From a virus, in IMG/VR virus record IMGVR_UViG_3300042294_002093, positions 1-64,000 of that record: a stretch of 64,000 bases of DNA, one strand, 5' to 3'. The translations under genes and the position numbers were made by a program. The notes below the pieces were generated by a model. The model did no database searches. It was not told where the DNA came from and saw only the letters and a program-made list of their open reading frames with translations. Positions 684 through 18,825 of the stretch are shown here, one piece after another (position 1 is the first letter of the stretch; every line of letters begins with the position of its first letter).

Positions 684-889
684 TGAAAACAATTACACAC
701 TCACTAAAATTCGTAACTGAATTAGATGAAACTAATGAAACTGCACAACGCTTACTTGCCTTACCGCAAGAAATGCAAATTGCTATGTTAGAAGGTATGC
801 TAAAAAATTTAGTTGTGCCTGCACTAAAACCAGTTATTGATGAATTAAACGCAGGCAATTCTTACGCAACGCTAAAGGTGGCTAACTAA
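683..889 (+). CDS. Hypothetical protein, 68 aa
   Basis: Coupled to both neighbours by TAATG overlaps. Helical and Leu-rich (segments such as LPQEMQIAMLEGMLKNL), with no Cys or membrane segment. No family recognised. Part of a four-gene microprotein unit that ends with the pseudoknot at 1084-1111. Confidence 0.65.
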   Translation: MKTITHSLKFVTELDETNETAQRLLALPQEMQIAMLEGMLKNLVVPALKPVIDELNAGNSYATLKVAN

Positions 890-1077
890 TGACTAGAAAA
901 GACTATATACAAACCGCTAATATCTTAAAAGAGTTTAGAGATGAAATTCCGCAAACTACTTATGAGGATATAGTAGATTTATTTTGCCAATGGTTCAAAT
1001 CAGATAATCCAAATTTTGACTATGCAAGATTTGAAACTGCTTGCGGTATTGATGAAATTGGTTTAATTCCAGCATAA
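889..1077 (+). CDS. Hypothetical protein, 62 aa
   Basis: ATG overlaps the preceding stop; ends at TAA 1075-1077. Acidic, aromatic-rich and probably helical (motif QTTYEDIVDLFCQWF). The last gene of its unit: six bases after the stop the conserved pseudoknot element begins. No family recognised. Confidence 0.65.
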   Translation: MTRKDYIQTANILKEFRDEIPQTTYEDIVDLFCQWFKSDNPNFDYARFETACGIDEIGLIPA

Positions 1078-1083
1078 TAAAAA

Positions 1084-1111
1084 ATTCCTGAGCAAGAATA
1101 AAAACTGCTCA
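1084..1111 (+). ncRNA. 3'-UTR pseudoknot element, copy 1
   Basis: H-type pseudoknot. Stem 1 is ATTC 1084-1087 with GAAT 1096-1099. Loop 1 is C1088. Stem 2 is TGAGCA 1089-1094 with TGCTCA 1106-1111. One base joins the stems and loop 3 is AAAAAC. It sits directly downstream of the 889-1077 gene. Flanking AAAATT and AATTTT can also pair with each other. It is one of six copies. No name is known to me for this motif. Confidence 0.7.
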
Positions 1112-1129
1112 AATTTTGGCCAGCGTGTC

Positions 1130-1148
1130 GTCCACAGGCTTATCCACA
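1130..1148 (+). promoter_or_regulatory. DnaA-box-like site pair
   Basis: TTATCCACA at 1140-1148 matches the consensus bacterial DnaA box exactly. A partial copy GTCCACAGG lies at 1130-1138, so CCACAGG occurs twice 11 bp apart. It lies in the non-coding 1078-1258 gap next to pseudoknot copy 1. A single perfect 9-mer can occur by chance, so origin function is speculative. Confidence 0.35.
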
Positions 1149-1258
1149 GGGTTTATGATGTGATTAAAATCACTCCCGAAATCTCCCTGAAAACCTGCTT
1201 GAGAGTGGCAAGTGTCGGTTGTATCTGATAGGATAAAGATATAAAGAAAGAAGGCAAA

Positions 1259-1423
1259 ATGGGTAAAGTAAAATCAACAATAATGGATATATTGGAATGC
1301 GATAGTTGCTATGGCTATGGTTGGCAATTCGCAGGAAATGATGTAGACTATGATGTATGGGCTTGCGAATGTAATCCTTACAATATCTCTGCTGATGAAC
1401 TAATAGATTGGAAACTAAACTAA
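1259..1423 (+). CDS. Cys-pair microprotein, 54 aa (copy B)
   Basis: Begins after AGAAAGAAGG at 1245-1254, a good ribosome binding site, and ends at TAA 1421-1423, overlapping the next ATG. Shares with the 534-683 product an N-terminal CDSC pair, a G-Y-G-W turn, the core GNDVDYDV, and a second Cys pair (CEC). Probably a small metal-binding protein; a function is not assignable. Confidence 0.65.
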   Translation: MGKVKSTIMDILECDSCYGYGWQFAGNDVDYDVWACECNPYNISADELIDWKLN

Positions 1424-1632
1424 TGGAATATAACTATTCACTTACTACTTCCTATGATGGGAAGTTAATTCATACCCTGCGAGTTAGCGATATGCTAGAG
1501 GCAGTAGACGCTTGGACTAAATGTGTAGACTATGGCACAGCCAAAGAATACGCAACCTATAACTTGTCAGACCCAACAGGAAAGATGTATACTAAAACCT
1601 TCTACACCAACGGAGAGGTCGTAATTAAATAA
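1423..1632 (+). CDS. Hypothetical protein, 69 aa
   Basis: I start it at 1423, where ATG overlaps the stop of the previous gene, not at the in-frame ATG at 1408. Tyr/Thr-rich, likely beta structure. The stop 1630-1632 overlaps the next ATG. No family recognised. Confidence 0.65.
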   Translation: MEYNYSLTTSYDGKLIHTLRVSDMLEAVDAWTKCVDYGTAKEYATYNLSDPTGKMYTKTFYTNGEVVIK

Positions 1633-1919
1633 TGGGAAGCGTAACAGCAATAGGTTTAGCAGATACAACGCTAGACCTAGAAACACAATTACTTTATCAC
1701 TTAAAGGGTAATCATTATCCACCAGTCCCCGCAGAAATGGTTAAGCCTTGCATTGAAGCAATTGACGCTTACTATGATAAAGATTGGTCACGCATGATTG
1801 AAATGCCTATGGTTGGCGACTTTCAGATTTTGTATAAAGGCATGACACACGCACCTGCTAGTGCTATTGTAAGTCAGCACCACTTAGAGTGGTTCATTGA
1901 GCCTAGTGATGAGGAATAA
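1632..1919 (+). CDS. Hypothetical protein, 95 aa
   Basis: Coupled by TAATG to the upstream gene. Contains helical segments and a Trp/His-rich C-terminal part (motif SQHHLEWF) followed by acidic residues. One base separates its stop from the next ATG at 1921. No family recognised. Confidence 0.65.
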   Translation: MGSVTAIGLADTTLDLETQLLYHLKGNHYPPVPAEMVKPCIEAIDAYYDKDWSRMIEMPMVGDFQILYKGMTHAPASAIVSQHHLEWFIEPSDEE

Positions 1920-1920
1920 A

Positions 1921-2157
1921 ATGTCTGCTACAATAAACGATATGGAATTGATTCACGCAGATAGTTTAACACCAGATCAATTAATGATTGGTGATTTAAT
2001 AAAAATTGGTGATGATATAGTTGAAGTTACTTTTATTGAAAGTGATTCAACAGGAGACAACTATGACATACAAACAAAAAATGAGTTTGGTGAATTAGAA
2101 ATTACTCAACACTCATACACTGATTTAATTCCTCTCTACGTTTTTATTCAAGAATAA
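1921..2157 (+). CDS. Hypothetical acidic protein, 78 aa
   Basis: I choose ATG 1921 because GATGAGG just upstream can act as a ribosome binding site; an upstream non-ATG start would overlap the preceding gene. Ile/Asp-rich with a pattern (LMIGDLIKIGDDIVEV) that suggests a small beta barrel. Last gene before the promoter at 2222. Confidence 0.65.
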   Translation: MSATINDMELIHADSLTPDQLMIGDLIKIGDDIVEVTFIESDSTGDNYDIQTKNEFGELEITQHSYTDLIPLYVFIQE

Positions 2158-2184
2158 TAATGCGTAGCCTTTCGGGGCCAGCCG

Positions 2185-2250
2185 ATGTCCGCTTTGTCCG
2201 ATTTTTATTAATTACGTAGACTTGTATTTTTTCCCTAAAAATGTTATACT
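2185..2250 (+). promoter_or_regulatory. Leaderless promoter with TGTCC repeats
   Basis: -35 TTGTAT 2222-2227, 17-bp spacer, -10 TATACT 2245-2250. The -10 ends five bases before ATG 2256, so transcription should start at or next to the start codon. Upstream, ATGTCCGCTTTGTCC (2185-2199) carries two TGTCC half-sites 9 bp apart. The same block precedes the promoters at 3135 and 4936. The spacer (TTTTCCCTAAAAATGT) resembles those at 3135 and 3910. Confidence 0.7.
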
Positions 2251-2255
2251 AAATT

Positions 2256-2978
2256 ATGACCCAATTAAAAAGATCTCATGACAGAAAGGTGGCTAACCTT
2301 GTCACAAAAAATGGAAAACAGGCCGCAATTGCAAACACGTTCGGTCTCCCTGCTGGAAAAGATTACTCATGCCCTGGTGCCACTAGTGTTTGTGAAAGCG
2401 TTTGCTACGCAGGAAAACTTGAAAAGTTATTCAAAGGAGTAAAGACTAACCTCCTACACAATTGGGAGTTATTGAAAGACGCAGACCATGAAACTATGGT
2501 TGGATTGTTGTATACGATGATTGCTGATTTCAGAAAAGATTGTGAAAAGAAAAATGCTCCATTGCTATTTCGTATTCATTGGGACGGTGATTTCTTTAAT
2601 GATACCTATACCAAAGCATGGAAAGAAGTTATAGAGTATCACAGTGATATAAAGTTTTGGGTATACACTAGAGTACACTCTGCAGCGGTAATGCTTAAGG
2701 GTATACCTAATCTATCTTTATACTATTCCACAGATAGTGAGAATAAAGAGATAGGTGTTAGTTTAAAGAAAGATCATGGTGTGCGCCTTGCATACCTTGC
2801 AAAGAATTTCGCCATAGGCCAAGCAGATATGAAAGAGTTATTTAATAAGCCTGGCGCTAAGTGTCCTGAAAACTTAAAGTCTATTCCACTTATCTCATCT
2901 AGTGGCTCCGCTTGCGTATCTTGCGGATTATGTGTATACTCTAAAGCAGACGTAGTATTTTCTGCGAGTAAGAAGTGA
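2256..2978 (+). CDS. GP88-like Cys-rich phage protein
   Basis: A 240-aa protein resembling the actinophage Gene product 88 family, which is conserved but uncharacterised. Near the N-terminus a Cys cluster (C39, C46, C50 in CPGATSVCESVCYAG) and near the C-terminus ACVSCGLC suggest a metal or Fe-S site (inference). The middle contains FRIHWDGDFF and WVYTR segments typical of these proteins. No ribosome binding site is visible and the promoter -10 lies 5 bp upstream, so translation is probably leaderless. Confidence 0.7.
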   Translation: MTQLKRSHDRKVANLVTKNGKQAAIANTFGLPAGKDYSCPGATSVCESVCYAGKLEKLFKGVKTNLLHNWELLKDADHETMVGLLYTMIADFRKDCEKKNAPLLFRIHWDGDFFNDTYTKAWKEVIEYHSDIKFWVYTRVHSAAVMLKGIPNLSLYYSTDSENKEIGVSLKKDHGVRLAYLAKNFAIGQADMKELFNKPGAKCPENLKSIPLISSSGSACVSCGLCVYSKADVVFSASKK

Positions 2979-2980
2979 TA

Positions 2981-3049
2981 ATGGAGATATTAGCAATAGT
3001 ATTAGTAGTTATATTTATGCTGTTTATGTTTGACTCCCCTTTTGGGTAG
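2981..3049 (+). CDS. Membrane micropeptide, 22 aa
   Basis: Starts two bases after the GP88-like gene and encodes one hydrophobic stretch (EILAIVLVVIFMLFMF) followed by DSPFG. This is one membrane helix and little else. Too short to place in a family. Support is coupling and composition only. Confidence 0.4.
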   Translation: MEILAIVLVVIFMLFMFDSPFG

Positions 3050-3060
3050 GGGTGTCCTAA

Positions 3061-3163
3061 ATGTCCGATTTGTCCTAATGTGATGTATCTCACAGAGAAA
3101 TAATCTCAAAATGTGAGAAATCTAAGAAATAGATTTGTATTTTTATCCAAAAAATGTTAGACT
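3061..3163 (+). promoter_or_regulatory. Promoter with TGTCC direct repeat
   Basis: -35 TTGTAT 3135-3140, 17-bp spacer, -10 TAGACT 3158-3163. Spacer bases TTTTATCCAAAAAATGT closely match the promoters at 2222 and 3910. ATGTCCGATTTGTCC at 3061-3075 repeats the upstream block of 2185-2199. The leader that follows contains AAAGGAG ahead of ATG 3201, so this transcript has a normal 5' UTR. Confidence 0.65.
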
Positions 3164-3200
3164 TAAACAGTAAGAAAAAACCAAACAAAGGAGAAACACA

Positions 3201-3365
3201 ATGTCCGTAGCAACCGCAACATACAAGGTAGGCGACCTCTACACAACACAAAAGTCAAAGGTAGTAGGAACTATCGTGGAAATCACACCACAGGCAAATG
3301 GTAATGTCCGTGTTAAGTTAGATGTAAATGGTTCATACCGATACACAACTTGGACGGCAAAGTAA
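3201..3365 (+). CDS. Small beta protein, 54 aa (copy A)
   Basis: Preceded by AAAGGAG at 3187-3193. The product carries YKVGDLYTT near its N-terminus and is a paralogue of the 3983-4153 product (YQIGDLFTT), with alternating hydrophobic and polar residues throughout. It looks like a single small barrel. It has its own promoter, a hairpin and a pseudoknot after the stop, so it is a one-gene unit. No family recognised. Confidence 0.65.
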   Translation: MSVATATYKVGDLYTTQKSKVVGTIVEITPQANGNVRVKLDVNGSYRYTTWTAK

Positions 3366-3367
3366 TC

Positions 3368-3383
3368 TTAGCCTAGTGGCTAA
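3368..3383 (+). other. Hairpin after gene 3201-3365
   Basis: TTAGCC 3368-3373 pairs perfectly with GGCTAA 3378-3383 across a TAGT loop, two bases after the stop. No T-tract follows, so it is not a standard intrinsic terminator. It abuts pseudoknot copy 2. Confidence 0.5.
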
Positions 3384-3384
3384 A

Positions 3385-3411
3385 GTCCTGAGCATGACCA
3401 AAAACTGCTCA
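3385..3411 (+). ncRNA. 3'-UTR pseudoknot element, copy 2
   Basis: Stem 1 GTC 3385-3387 with GAC 3396-3398 (3 bp, the weakest copy). Loop 1 is C3388. Stem 2 TGAGCA 3389-3394 with TGCTCA 3406-3411. Loop 3 is CAAAAAC. Same order and spacing as the other copies. Confidence 0.65.
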
Positions 3412-3460
3412 ACTTAATACCCCCATCAAACCCACTAAACAGAAACGGAAACAAAAACAA

Positions 3461-3883
3461 ATGGCAAGAGGCAAAGCAATAAATGTAAAAATCGCTACAC
3501 CAAAGGTTATTACAGCCCTAACAAATAAGTTAGCAGAACTAGAGGCTAACTACAAAAAGCAAGACGAGAACGAAGCAAAGTATAACGAAGCACTAGAGGC
3601 TTGGAAAAAAGAATTATTTACTTTCGCTATCGCTAACATAGATAAGGCTCAAAATGTGCGAACCAACTATCGCCAATGGTCAAGCAACCTTAATGTTGAT
3701 TTTGATTTAACAGTTAAGGAAGGCGAGTTCCCTGCTGAGCCAACTAGGGATTTTGAGCAAATCCATCAGCACACTTATCGTGAGATGAAAGAGGAAATCT
3801 CTAACGCTATCCGTATCCTTTTAATGACGGACGAGGAAACAGTTAGCACTAGCACCTATAACGCTATTGCTCGTTATCTTTAA
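3461..3883 (+). CDS. Hypothetical coiled-coil protein, 140 aa
   Basis: ATG 3461 follows a purine-rich leader (ACAGAAACGGAAAC). Residues 15-60 are Ala/Glu/Lys-rich and likely a coiled coil; the rest is helical (QHTYREMKEEISNAIRILL). No catalytic motif, Cys pair or membrane segment. It lies between pseudoknot copy 2 and the promoter at 3910. No family recognised. Confidence 0.7.
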   Translation: MARGKAINVKIATPKVITALTNKLAELEANYKKQDENEAKYNEALEAWKKELFTFAIANIDKAQNVRTNYRQWSSNLNVDFDLTVKEGEFPAEPTRDFEQIHQHTYREMKEEISNAIRILLMTDEETVSTSTYNAIARYL

Positions 3884-3909
3884 TTAGATAAATAGGTGGG
3901 GAAGGGTAT

Positions 3910-3938
3910 TTGACTTCCCCCCTAAAAAATGTTAGACT
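3910..3938 (+). promoter_or_regulatory. Promoter, TTGACT-17-TAGACT
   Basis: -35 TTGACT 3910-3915, 17-bp spacer, -10 TAGACT 3933-3938. The spacer CCCCCCTAAAAAATGT shares CC-TAAAAAATGT with the promoters at 2222 and 3135, more conservation than sigma recognition needs. It drives the gene at 3983 through a leader with AAACAGAAAGG. Confidence 0.65.
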
Positions 3939-3982
3939 AAGTAAGTAATGACCCCAAACCCAAACAGAAAGGCAAGACCCAA

Positions 3983-4153
3983 ATGACACTAGGCGGATAC
4001 ACATACCAAATCGGTGATTTATTCACCACAAGCAAAACAGGTATCACAGGTAGAATTGTAAAGTTCTCACCTATTAACTCTAAGACCACTAGAGTATCCT
4101 TACAGTTAGCAAATGGCGCAAGACGCCTTGCTATGGTAAGCACAACTAAATAA
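3983..4153 (+). CDS. Small beta protein, 56 aa (copy B)
   Basis: Preceded by CAGAAAGGCAAG. Paralogue of the 3201-3365 product: both have Y-x-(V/I)-G-D-L-(Y/F)-T-T followed by an S/K turn and a strand with (G)-x-I-V. A one-gene unit with its own promoter and a pseudoknot four bases after the stop. Function unknown. Confidence 0.65.
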   Translation: MTLGGYTYQIGDLFTTSKTGITGRIVKFSPINSKTTRVSLQLANGARRLAMVSTTK

Positions 4154-4157
4154 TAAA

Positions 4158-4186
4158 AACTCCTGAGCATGAGTTAAAACTGCTCA
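4158..4186 (+). ncRNA. 3'-UTR pseudoknot element, copy 3
   Basis: Stem 1 AACTC 4158-4162 with GAGTT 4171-4175 (5 bp). Loop 1 is C4163. Stem 2 TGAGCA 4164-4169 with TGCTCA 4181-4186. Loop 3 is AAAAC. Stem 1 bases differ from copies 1, 2 and 4 yet stay complementary. Confidence 0.75.
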
Positions 4187-4198
4187 CCTATAGGATCT

Positions 4199-4228
4199 TT
4201 GACAAATGTCAGTGGCCGATAGTATAAT
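4199..4228 (+). promoter_or_regulatory. Promoter, TTGACA-18-TATAAT
   Basis: Consensus -35 TTGACA 4199-4204 and -10 TATAAT 4223-4228, 18-bp spacer. It lies downstream of an in-frame ATG at 4206 and so forces the real start of the next gene to 4263. The leader contains CCAAACAAACAGAAAGAAG, similar to the leaders at 3165 and 4965. Confidence 0.75.
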
Positions 4229-4262
4229 TAAATTAACCAAACAAACAGAAAGAAGCCCCACA

Positions 4263-4742
4263 ATGTCAACTAACATTAATGACGCCGTAACAATTGATAA
4301 ACTAGAAGTACCGTACAACCCAAATCTTCTTGTAACATATAAAGCCATTGCTGGTACATATGCTGCTCCTGAAGAGCCAACTTATTTAACATCCAAGGTA
4401 ACAGACCTTGAATGGGAACTACACAGTGCACGTGCTCGTGAAGAAGCGCTACGTAGTCTTCAAGGAACAGTGAGACAACTTGAAGACAATATTGTAGAAT
4501 GGTATGACCCTAACTATTCTAAAGAAGAAGTTCTTGTAGCGCTATGCGAACTCTTTGGTATTAATCCAGTCAAAGAAATTGAAGTACAAGGAACTGTTTC
4601 ATTCAGTGGAACAATCAGTGTACCAATGTCAGAGATTGCAGACTTTGATTTAAGTAATGTCACGATTGATGTTGATTTAAGTTCATATGAGTATGACGCT
4701 GACTTAAATGTAGACGAGGTTTCTTTGGAAGACCACTACTGA
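4263..4742 (+). CDS. Acidic hypothetical protein, 159 aa
   Basis: Start at 4263, after the promoter and GAAAGAAG. Residues 45-75 are a likely coiled coil. The C-terminal half is very acidic and repetitive (DFDLSNVTIDVDLSSYEYD), probably beta. Actinophages carry proteins of this general look, but I cannot name a family. No Cys or membrane segment. Followed by pseudoknot copy 4. Confidence 0.65.
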   Translation: MSTNINDAVTIDKLEVPYNPNLLVTYKAIAGTYAAPEEPTYLTSKVTDLEWELHSARAREEALRSLQGTVRQLEDNIVEWYDPNYSKEEVLVALCELFGINPVKEIEVQGTVSFSGTISVPMSEIADFDLSNVTIDVDLSSYEYDADLNVDEVSLEDHY

Positions 4743-4793
4743 GATCTGTAGCAACCGCTGCAGGGACCGTTTAAATTTGATAGGGGGCTATCA

Positions 4794-4822
4794 AAATCCT
4801 GGCCATGATTTAAAACTGGCCT
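4794..4822 (+). ncRNA. 3'-UTR pseudoknot element, copy 4
   Basis: Stem 1 AAATC 4794-4798 with GATTT 4807-4811. Loop 1 is C4799. Stem 2 GGCCA 4801-4805 with TGGCC 4817-4821, where the other copies have GAGCA/TGCTC, so two pairs have changed on both sides. Loop 3 is AAAAC. A T-rich run follows, so this copy could also terminate transcription. Confidence 0.8.
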
Positions 4823-4902
4823 ATTTTTTATTTAAAAAAGCCAGCCACAAAAATCTAAAATGTCAAACAACACGCCGATGTGTTTACGATCACATAATAA
4901 AA

Positions 4903-4964
4903 ATGTCCGAATTGTCCATGTTTAACTATCTGGATTTGCATTTGTCAGCCTGTCCTGTTATACT
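4903..4964 (+). promoter_or_regulatory. Promoter with TGTCC direct repeat
   Basis: -35 TTGCAT 4936-4941, 17-bp spacer, -10 TATACT 4959-4964. ATGTCCGAATTGTCC 4903-4917 is the third copy of the upstream block, ending 18 bp before the -35. The leader includes ACAGAAAGAAGGAAAC ahead of ATG 4996. Confidence 0.7.
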
Positions 4965-4995
4965 TAAATTAACAACAACAGAAAGAAGGAAACTC

Positions 4996-6012
4996 ATGGC
5001 ACATGACCTAGAAACACAAAACGGAAAGACATCTTTTGCATCTTTTCGTGAACCTGCATGGCATGGATTGGGTACTGTCTTTACAGAAGAAAAAACAACC
5101 GTAGAAATGTTGGAAGCAGCAAATCTTAATGGTTGGAATGTTCGTCTTGAAGATTTGGAAACCCCAACACACTTAACAAGCGACAAGGCATATCAATATG
5201 TTTTGCGTACTAACCCAACAGACAAAACACAAACAGACATTTTAGGCGTTGTTGGTGAGCGCTACCATGTTTTACAAAATGAAGATTTATTTTCATTTGG
5301 TGATAACATTCTTGATGGTGGCGGACGCTGGGAAACTGCTGGTTCAATCAAGGGTGGGCGTGTAGTATTTGGCGCTCTTGCTCTTGAGCGTGAAACAGTT
5401 CTTGACCCTAATGGTGTTGCGGATAAGGTAAAAACTTATTTGCTGATTAACACATCACATGACGGTTCAATCGCTATTCAAGCAAGCATTACACCTGTTC
5501 GTGTTGTTTGCGCCAACACTCTCAATCTTGCGTTAGGTGCTAAGAAAAAGAAGAATGGCATCAAACAATCATTCAAGATTCGCCACACACAAACTGCAAA
5601 TGGTAAAGTGCAGATTGCTCGTGAAACTCTTGGTCTTGCTAATGCTTACATGGACGAATTTGATATTATGGCTAAGGCTATGATTGAAAAAGAAGTTTCT
5701 GCTAAGCAATTTAACGACATTATTCTTACAGCGTATGCAAAACCTGAAAAAGATACTAAGGGTGCGCTAAAGAAATGGGAAAACAAAATAGATGTTATTA
5801 ACGACATCTACACAGGCGAGTTTAATGGTATGATTGCTAATACTGCTTGGGGTGCTTTCAATGCACTAACTGAGCGTTTAGATTGGTATCGTTCTGCTCG
5901 TGGTGGTTCTAACGAATCTATTCTCGCATCTGCTAGTGGATTTGACCCTGCAATTAACGCAGAGAAAAATCGTTTGCTAAAAGTTGTGCAGAATGTTATG
6001 CAAATTGCATAG
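4996..6012 (+). CDS. DUF932 phage/plasmid-like protein
   Basis: A 338-aa protein of the DUF932 (phage/plasmid-like, TIGR03299-type) family, common in actinophages and plasmids; biochemical role unknown. It opens with the typical REPAWHGLGT segment (about residues 24-33), later VVGERYHVLQN and RVVCANTLNLAL, all landmarks of the family. The start is set by the promoter at 4936 and AGAAGGA at 4984-4990; upstream in-frame starts lie before the promoter. A one-gene unit followed by pseudoknot copy 5. Confidence 0.85.
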   Translation: MAHDLETQNGKTSFASFREPAWHGLGTVFTEEKTTVEMLEAANLNGWNVRLEDLETPTHLTSDKAYQYVLRTNPTDKTQTDILGVVGERYHVLQNEDLFSFGDNILDGGGRWETAGSIKGGRVVFGALALERETVLDPNGVADKVKTYLLINTSHDGSIAIQASITPVRVVCANTLNLALGAKKKKNGIKQSFKIRHTQTANGKVQIARETLGLANAYMDEFDIMAKAMIEKEVSAKQFNDIILTAYAKPEKDTKGALKKWENKIDVINDIYTGEFNGMIANTAWGAFNALTERLDWYRSARGGSNESILASASGFDPAINAEKNRLLKVVQNVMQIA

Positions 6013-6028
6013 CACAATTTAATATATG

Positions 6029-6060
6029 CCACCTGAGTAAGTGGATGCAAAAACTGCTCA
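6029..6060 (+). ncRNA. 3'-UTR pseudoknot element, copy 5
   Basis: Stem 1 CCAC 6029-6032 with GTGG 6041-6044. Loop 1 is C6033. Stem 2 TGAGTA 6034-6039 with TGCTCA 6055-6060, one G-U pair. Loop 3 is longer (10 nt) but still ends AAAAAC. It ends three bases before tRNA-Asp. Confidence 0.7.
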
Positions 6061-6063
6061 CAA

Positions 6064-6137
6064 GGTTCCATAGATCAATTGGTTAGATCGCTACCCTGTC
6101 ACGGTAGAGGTTACGGGTTCAAGTCCCGTTGGAATCG
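6064..6137 (+). tRNA. tRNA-Asp (GTC)
   Basis: Complete cloverleaf. Acceptor GGTTCCA/TGGAATC (one G-U), D stem GATC/GATC, anticodon stem CTACC/GGTAG with loop CTGTCAC (anticodon GTC), T arm ACGGG-TTCAAGT-CCCGT, discriminator G73 as expected for Asp. CCA is not encoded. Confidence 0.93.
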
Positions 6138-6187
6138 CAAAGCGGGGCCAGCCATGTGATCAATATAACATTTTTGAAAAAATTCGA

Positions 6188-6228
6188 TTACGAAGAGTCT
6201 TGACTTTTCCCTAAATTTCTGCAATAAT
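6188..6228 (+). promoter_or_regulatory. Leaderless promoter for microprotein operon
   Basis: -35 TTGACT 6200-6205, 17-bp spacer, -10 AATAAT 6223-6228, six bases before ATG 6235. The spacer begins TTTCCCTAAA as in other promoters here. ATTACGAAGAGT just upstream (6188-6199) recurs exactly at 9351-9362 and in part near 2211. Confidence 0.65.
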
Positions 6229-18793: not shown

Positions 18794-18825
18794 TGAGCAG
18801 TTTATAGACTACTGCTCAGGTCTAT
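18794..18825 (-). ncRNA. Pseudoknot element, copy 6
   Basis: Minus strand: stem 1 ATAGAC (18825-18820) with GTCTAT (18809-18804); loop 1 C; stem 2 TGAGCA (18818-18813) with TGCTCA (18799-18794), extendable to TGAGCAGT/ACTGCTCA. The sequence before the last arm is again AAAC. It lies about 100 bases after the hsp20 stop and just before the next promoter. Confidence 0.7.

Follow-up and report, generated by a model that had tools for sequence, protein, structure and literature searches.

A recurrent H-type pseudoknot with two covarying stems, positioned just past stop codons in DNA phages

Why should a single viral genome carry the same small RNA fold several times? The question is raised by 64,000 nucleotides (nt) of viral DNA, positions 1 to 64,000 of IMG/VR record IMGVR_UViG_3300042294_002093 (hereafter the window), which form part of a record of 111,082 bases. 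An earlier note on this DNA had described five plus-strand copies of an H-type pseudoknot, and re-scanning the window we found all five, with the positions and stems it had given, including a two-sided change of stem 2 in copy 4 and a G-U pair in copy 5. That note spoke of six copies and listed five; a sixth, on the minus strand (18824-18794), came from our structural-descriptor scan. Our results indicate that the element is best explained as a cis-acting RNA family of DNA phages, located in mRNA just past the stop codon. The copies are as follows (hyphens separate stem arms and loops).

1084..1111, plus strand: pseudoknot copy 1, ATTC-C-TGAGCA-A-GAAT-AAAAAC-TGCTCA
3385..3411, plus strand: pseudoknot copy 2, GTC-C-TGAGCA-T-GAC-CAAAAAC-TGCTCA
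4158..4186, plus strand: pseudoknot copy 3, AACTC-C-TGAGCA-T-GAGTT-AAAAC-TGCTCA
4794..4821, plus strand: pseudoknot copy 4, AAATC-CT-GGCCA-T-GATTT-AAAAC-TGGCC
6029..6060, plus strand: pseudoknot copy 5, CCAC-C-TGAGTA-A-GTGG-ATGCAAAAAC-TGCTCA, with the G-U pair in stem 2
18794..18824, minus strand: pseudoknot copy 6, TAGAC-C-TGAGCA-GTA-GTCTA-TAAAC-TGCTCA, from the descriptor scan and absent from the first list

The core pattern CCTGAGCA-N4-14-AAAACTGCTCA, in which stem 1 is unspecified, has at least 120 matches in IMG/VR. Among the matches listed in scans with stem 1 free, stem 1 pairs in 133 of 135 distinct copies, and in those 133 exactly one base separates the stem-2 arm from the stem-1 partner. 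In two additional scans the middle of stem 2 was unconstrained, its ends and the loop were specified, and the commonest version was excluded. Both middle positions paired in 133 of 144 distinct matches; the pairs comprised eight Watson-Crick combinations as well as G-U forms, and stem 1 was also paired in 132 of these 133 copies. For covariation we used 111 gapless sequences picked irrespective of pairing and counted pairs directly, without a covariance model: 97.6% of cells paired, compared with 26-34% when the partner was slid, and the covariation score was 0.513 against 0.138 for shuffled sequences. A descriptor with stem 2 free gave 164 matches in 1.14 Mb of viral loci and 7 in shuffled sequence; these loci had been fetched for carrying the motif, and therefore the independent evidence is the pairing in the scans that left stem 1 or the stem-2 middle free. 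A chance origin of the motif is excluded. Pairing counts and covariation score agree on an H-type pseudoknot with two interleaved covarying stems, a short loop 1 and an A-rich loop, and by these pair counts the homologues covary and keep stem 1 paired, the two points on which the earlier note had staked its structure.

Stem 1 comprises 4 base pairs (bp), because a fifth position shows no excess pairing (0.41 versus 0.40 and 0.44 versus 0.43 expected). For stem 2, 6 bp had been claimed. The outermost pair, however, forms in 3 of 19 copies whose first base is changed, the partner mostly staying A, and copy 4 reads TGGCCA/TGGCCT. Since this pair does not covary, the stem-2 core is 5 bp, and the outermost U...A acts as conserved letters, not as a pair. 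The consensus of the element, about 28 nt long, is NNNC - C - U GRNCA - W - GNNN - NN AAAAC - UGNYC A: a 4-bp stem 1 closed by C-G, a stem-2 core GRNCA/UGNYC, a loop 1 of C plus the conserved U, a loop 2 that is usually U or A, and a loop 3 of about 6 nt ending in AAAAC, with the stem-2 arms 11 nt apart in 296 of 359 copies. Because the fetch patterns fix the loops and the stem-2 ends, conservation of those letters was judged only from negative scans. The C of loop 1 proved nearly absolute (one IMG/VR exception, against at least 120 matches with C), the last base of loop 3 is C with five IMG/VR exceptions, three of them still pairing stem 1, and G at loop 2 is rare (12 matches, mostly from two lineages). 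Directly after the pseudoknot G occurs at 1%; a G there could pair with loop 1. A 3-nt loop 2 was seen in copy 6 and at locus L157 (GTA, GTC; L numbers denote loci), which suggests a second subtype. A looser pattern run over the whole record returned the five plus-strand copies only, missing copy 6 because it disallows this longer loop.

Carriers include Synechococcus phage S-RIM4, Mycobacterium phage Labelle, Paracoccus phage ParMal1, Arthrobacter phage Molivia, Microbacterium phage Count, Nostoc phage NMeng1, Moorella phage MTATph1, crAss-like phage cr7_1, Lactococcus phage BM13 and microvirus MW202581. Synechococcus phage S-EIVl has the structure with one stem-2 mismatch, and weaker forms occur in Lactobacillus, Bacillus and Streptococcus phages. 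The hosts span Actinobacteria, Firmicutes, Cyanobacteria and Alphaproteobacteria, in addition to crAss-like phages. Among 84,980 bacterial and archaeal species there were 39 matches, from many phyla; at least two of them (L154 at about 5923, L162 at about 930) are spacers of clustered regularly interspaced short palindromic repeat (CRISPR) arrays, judged from the flanking repeats, a location that fits a phage origin. These two spacers hold the entire pseudoknot, and the match in L127 at about 1786 is perhaps likewise a spacer. One 30-nt BLAST query found no match in E. coli genomes, a null that says little because short-motif BLAST overlooks copies with other stem-1 letters.

The supposition that no named RNA family has this consensus agrees with our searches. 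Against Rfam 15 the pseudoknot gave no match at gathering score, either in the window or in 12 further loci, a search in which single-stem covariance models have limits on 28-nt pseudoknots, and none at E<=10 over window positions 900-6200. We found no description of the element in the open-access literature searched; subscription journals and most preprints lie outside that scope, so we call the family undescribed provisionally, and file it as a new family within the known H-type structural kind. A widespread phage RNA family with two covarying stems and near-invariant loop bases is missing from Rfam and from the open literature searched. The T-even gene 32 pseudoknot, to which the copies had been compared, lies in a 5′ leader, with 67 nt between it and the start codon, and there nucleates autoregulatory gp32 binding, and in a 2010 T4 review it is the sole phage mRNA pseudoknot with a regulatory role (PMC3014915). 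The comparison holds for the fold, since the element resembles the T2/T4/RB69 structures as an H-type pseudoknot of about 30 nt in phage mRNA, with coaxial stems and a short loop 1. It does not hold for position: our element is intercistronic and post-stop, occurs in several copies per genome, has another conserved sequence, and follows open reading frames (ORFs) of about 97 unrelated clusters without a general link to single-stranded DNA-binding protein (SSB) genes.

We examined gene context with genes called by a simple purpose-written script. The copies were intergenic in 355 of 359 cases and shared their strand with the gene upstream in 340 of 359, and their distance from the stop codon to stem 1 had an abrupt onset at 5 nt, which bears out the expected conserved position just past stop codons. 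Across 120 independent contexts the spacing was 0 nt in none, 1-2 nt in two, 3 nt in none and 4 nt in four (six below 5 nt), then 5 nt in seventeen and 6 nt in eleven (28 at 5-6 nt), with a long tail after that. Ordinary hairpin terminators at the same loci lacked this peak (12 of 141 at 5-6 nt). The next start codon was rarely less than 17 nt away, and lay within 30 nt in 30 of 114 contexts. Neighbouring proteins formed 97 clusters on the upstream side and 115 on the downstream side, so a single regulated pathway is too narrow an account, and one regulated gene family was rejected as the common theme.

What could recognize such a position? Frameshift stimulators typically lie 5-9 nt from the shift site, because the ribosome then meets the structure at its mRNA entrance (PMC5009743), and post-termination ribosomes may drift into 3′ untranslated regions if recycling fails (PMC7538156). 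We propose the ribosome as the partner of the pseudoknot, because it is common to the diverse hosts, because the stop codon sets the position and because a specific pseudoknot is kept. On this basis we favour, tentatively and at somewhat less than an even chance, the reading that the pseudoknot acts as a mechanical barrier to the ribosome as it terminates. The pseudoknot would sit at the mRNA entrance when the stop codon occupies the A site, and would resist unwinding; a plain barrier of this kind would close the ORF against run-on ribosomes and keep its end shielded.

In its short, C-bearing loop 1, its 1-nt junction and its A-rich loop 3 the element resembles luteovirus (beet western yellows virus-type) frameshift pseudoknots. 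Like these and the murine leukaemia virus-type readthrough pseudoknots, the element is a compact H-type fold within 5-9 nt of the decoded codon, and its 5-6 nt peak would match a recoding signal that stimulates stop-codon readthrough or frameshifting (PMC5009743). Unlike them, it belongs to DNA phages of bacteria, and past its stop codons no frame is preferentially open: in 190 examined cases at least 30 codons stayed open in 23, 14 and 23 for frames 0, +1 and +2. Moreover, the core holds TGA in one frame, and the element also precedes tRNAs. We therefore rejected recoding, which appears highly improbable; the missing open frame, despite the frameshift-like spacing, is why we infer a plain barrier.

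Several points weigh against the barrier. The tail of the spacing distribution is long, with about 40% of contexts above 20 nt, and six copies were called at convergent gene ends, with no downstream gene to insulate. In bacterial small-ORF genes the stop codon falls inside the pseudoknot, which breaks the 5-nt spacing rule. The same threshold would be expected if the pseudoknot merely stays folded beside the terminating ribosome, and other jobs, such as exonuclease blocking or protein binding, would be compatible with it. The small ORF in question, of about 20 amino acids and of the type MKRFTMPRTAHCSEGCKLKS, is conserved on bacterial chromosomal contigs (L124, L126, L141, L144, L145, L147, L158 and L161; L134 is similar). 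The pseudoknot overlaps its end, the TGA within CCTGAGCA being its stop codon, and in L141, L158 and L161 a terminator-like hairpin follows. The peptide seems real because codon changes between relatives are largely synonymous.

Termination, one of the roles suggested earlier, would have stem 2 and a U-tract act as a pseudoknot-type intrinsic transcription terminator. As with intrinsic terminators, the element lies 3′ of ORFs, and T is enriched at positions +2 to +8 (0.36-0.48, falling to about 0.30 by +9), with five or more T within 14 nt in 42 of 359 copies as against 4-6 in control windows; a few convergent ends (L304, L108) have the pseudoknot plus a U-tract. However, the stem is directly followed by a run of four T in 65 of 359 copies, or 23 of 125 contexts, and some 70% of the copies lack both a U-tract and a tRNA. 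Others stand 1-13 nt before a tRNA or about 17-30 nt before a start codon, which leaves no room for a promoter, and stem 2 has just 5 bp with an 11-nt loop. Because most copies have no U-tract and some lie just before a tRNA, a general termination role is unlikely, and we regard the terminator reading as very doubtful. Hairpin terminators at the same loci also differ in having no 5-6 nt peak. Over all loci the pseudoknot was depleted at convergent gene ends (p=3.5e-6), where terminators were enriched, but the contrast was gone once relatives were collapsed to 85 independent clusters (12% versus 8%, p=0.50). Neither this avoidance nor that of tRNA 3′ ends was significant across the collapsed clusters, and we withdrew both.

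Repetitive extragenic palindromic (REP) and other intercistronic stem-loops lie between cistrons, and such structures fit with differential fates of the mRNA. The element shares this place in the operon; unlike them, it is a pseudoknot with invariant loops, phased to the stop codon. As a REP-like cap it would block exoribonucleases of 3′-to-5′ polarity (PNPase, RNase R, RNase II) and thereby let the upstream cistron survive termination, RNase P cleavage ahead of a tRNA, or loss of the downstream cistron by decay. The pseudoknot always follows an ORF, and in 37 copies, mostly ahead of tRNA-Asp in related phages (6 of 125 contexts), a tRNA starts 1-13 nt downstream, where RNase P would make a 3′ end. 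The directly adjoining U-tracts fit as well, as does the depletion of G in the first 8 nt 3′ of the pseudoknot, as in an unstructured tail, and high expression is expected of several genes upstream of it (major head protein, SSB, Hsp20). On the other hand, no processing site was seen, and in Lactobacillus, Lactococcus and Streptococcus phages and the microvirus it is the downstream gene that encodes the abundant product (scaffold, major capsid). A plain hairpin would suffice for blocking nucleases, as it would for termination; the near-invariant unpaired bases, which such a cap leaves unexplained, speak for a role specific to the pseudoknot. We consider the cap rather unlikely. If it is correct, the element would be a bacterial counterpart of viral exonuclease-resistant RNAs.

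Those same bases, the C of loop 1, the C ending loop 3 and the AAAA run, resemble contacts made in recognition or in tertiary structure, and the fold might be read by a protein of phage or host, such as ribosomal protein S1, that regulates translation or decay. S1 binds H-type pseudoknots, one of them, derived by systematic evolution of ligands by exponential enrichment (SELEX), with nanomolar affinity (PMC7708055). It also binds the standby pseudoknots of tisB and zorO, 5′ elements that promote initiation (PMC7708055, PMC11228461); like them, the element is a bacterial mRNA pseudoknot that may act on the ribosome, but it is located past a stop codon, often with a tRNA to follow. A phage-encoded partner is improbable because the carriers span many host groups and share no neighbouring gene. 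Nor does protein binding predict the phasing to the stop codon, and the invariant bases would equally fit pure tertiary structure. We hold this explanation to be unlikely. Protection of 3′ ends and protein binding had both been suggested earlier; both are possible roles.

The ribosome barrier might extend to a broader statement, which we put forward with still more reserve: that DNA phages of distant hosts, from tailed double-stranded phages to single-stranded microviruses, share a ribosome-phased, non-recoding barrier that punctuates ORF ends. If true, this would be a kind of mRNA element without earlier description. If the ribosome reading is right, phages would own a portable, general-purpose part for punctuating polycistronic mRNA with no recoding involved, and it would be usable as an insulator for synthetic operons.

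How, then, do the copies in the window sit among their genes? The adjoining features are these.

889..1077, plus strand: ORF upstream of copy 1, whose stop sets the spacing of that copy
3201..3365, plus strand: ORF upstream of copy 2
3983..4153, plus strand: ORF upstream of copy 3
4263..4742, plus strand: ORF upstream of copy 4
4996..6012, plus strand: ORF upstream of copy 5
6064..6138, plus strand: tRNA-Asp, directly 3′ of copy 5

Copy 1 begins 6 nt from its stop, copy 2 lies 19 nt past the stop at 3365 and is followed by an ORF starting at 3461, and copy 3 is 4 nt from the stop at 4153, or 5 nt if the canonical 4-bp stem is counted. Copy 4, altered on both sides of stem 2 and without the outer pair, is followed by a U-rich stretch; copy 5 stands 16 nt past the stop at 6012 and 3 nt ahead of the tRNA. 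Copy 6 lies about 22 nt ahead of the start of a minus-strand ORF (18771-18163). The earlier placing of each copy before the next promoter or tRNA is right for copies 1, 3, 4 and 5 and fails for copy 2, whose flanking genes are separated by under 100 nt in which no promoter is apparent by eye; the claim that every copy ends a transcription unit is unsupported. Promoter-like sequences reached 2.0 times the shuffled level after pseudoknots and 1.7 times in other gaps, so we rejected a promoter-linked unit end as a special feature of the element.

Some further observations concern individual loci. In Lactobacillus, Lactococcus and Streptococcus phages and an L. salivarius plasmid (L167, L170, L171, L357, L362 and L366) the pseudoknot occupies one common site, flanked by minor-head genes and by the scaffold gene, which itself stands ahead of the gene for the major capsid; the stem letters differ, and in some cases there is a weakened stem 2 plus a U-tract. 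The phage-linked DUF2800 RNA (RF02960) was found near the pseudoknot in L128 and L133, directly downstream of it in L128, and the downstream sequence of L166 resembles that region by eye. In L165 (Lentibacter phage ICBM2, 1481-1530) the pseudoknot lies within the annotated start of a glutaredoxin gene, so that this start may have been placed too early. Past copy 1 in the window (about 1118-1150) is a stretch, GGCCAGCGTGTCGTCCACAGGCTTATCCACAGG, in part common to phage loci L070 and L140, which contains the DnaA-box-like TTATCCACA. Unit ends of the window that have no pseudoknot (3893-3930 and 3030-3050) have ordinary GC hairpins, such as GGGGAAG...CTTCCCC, and one of these overlaps a promoter-like -35 box.

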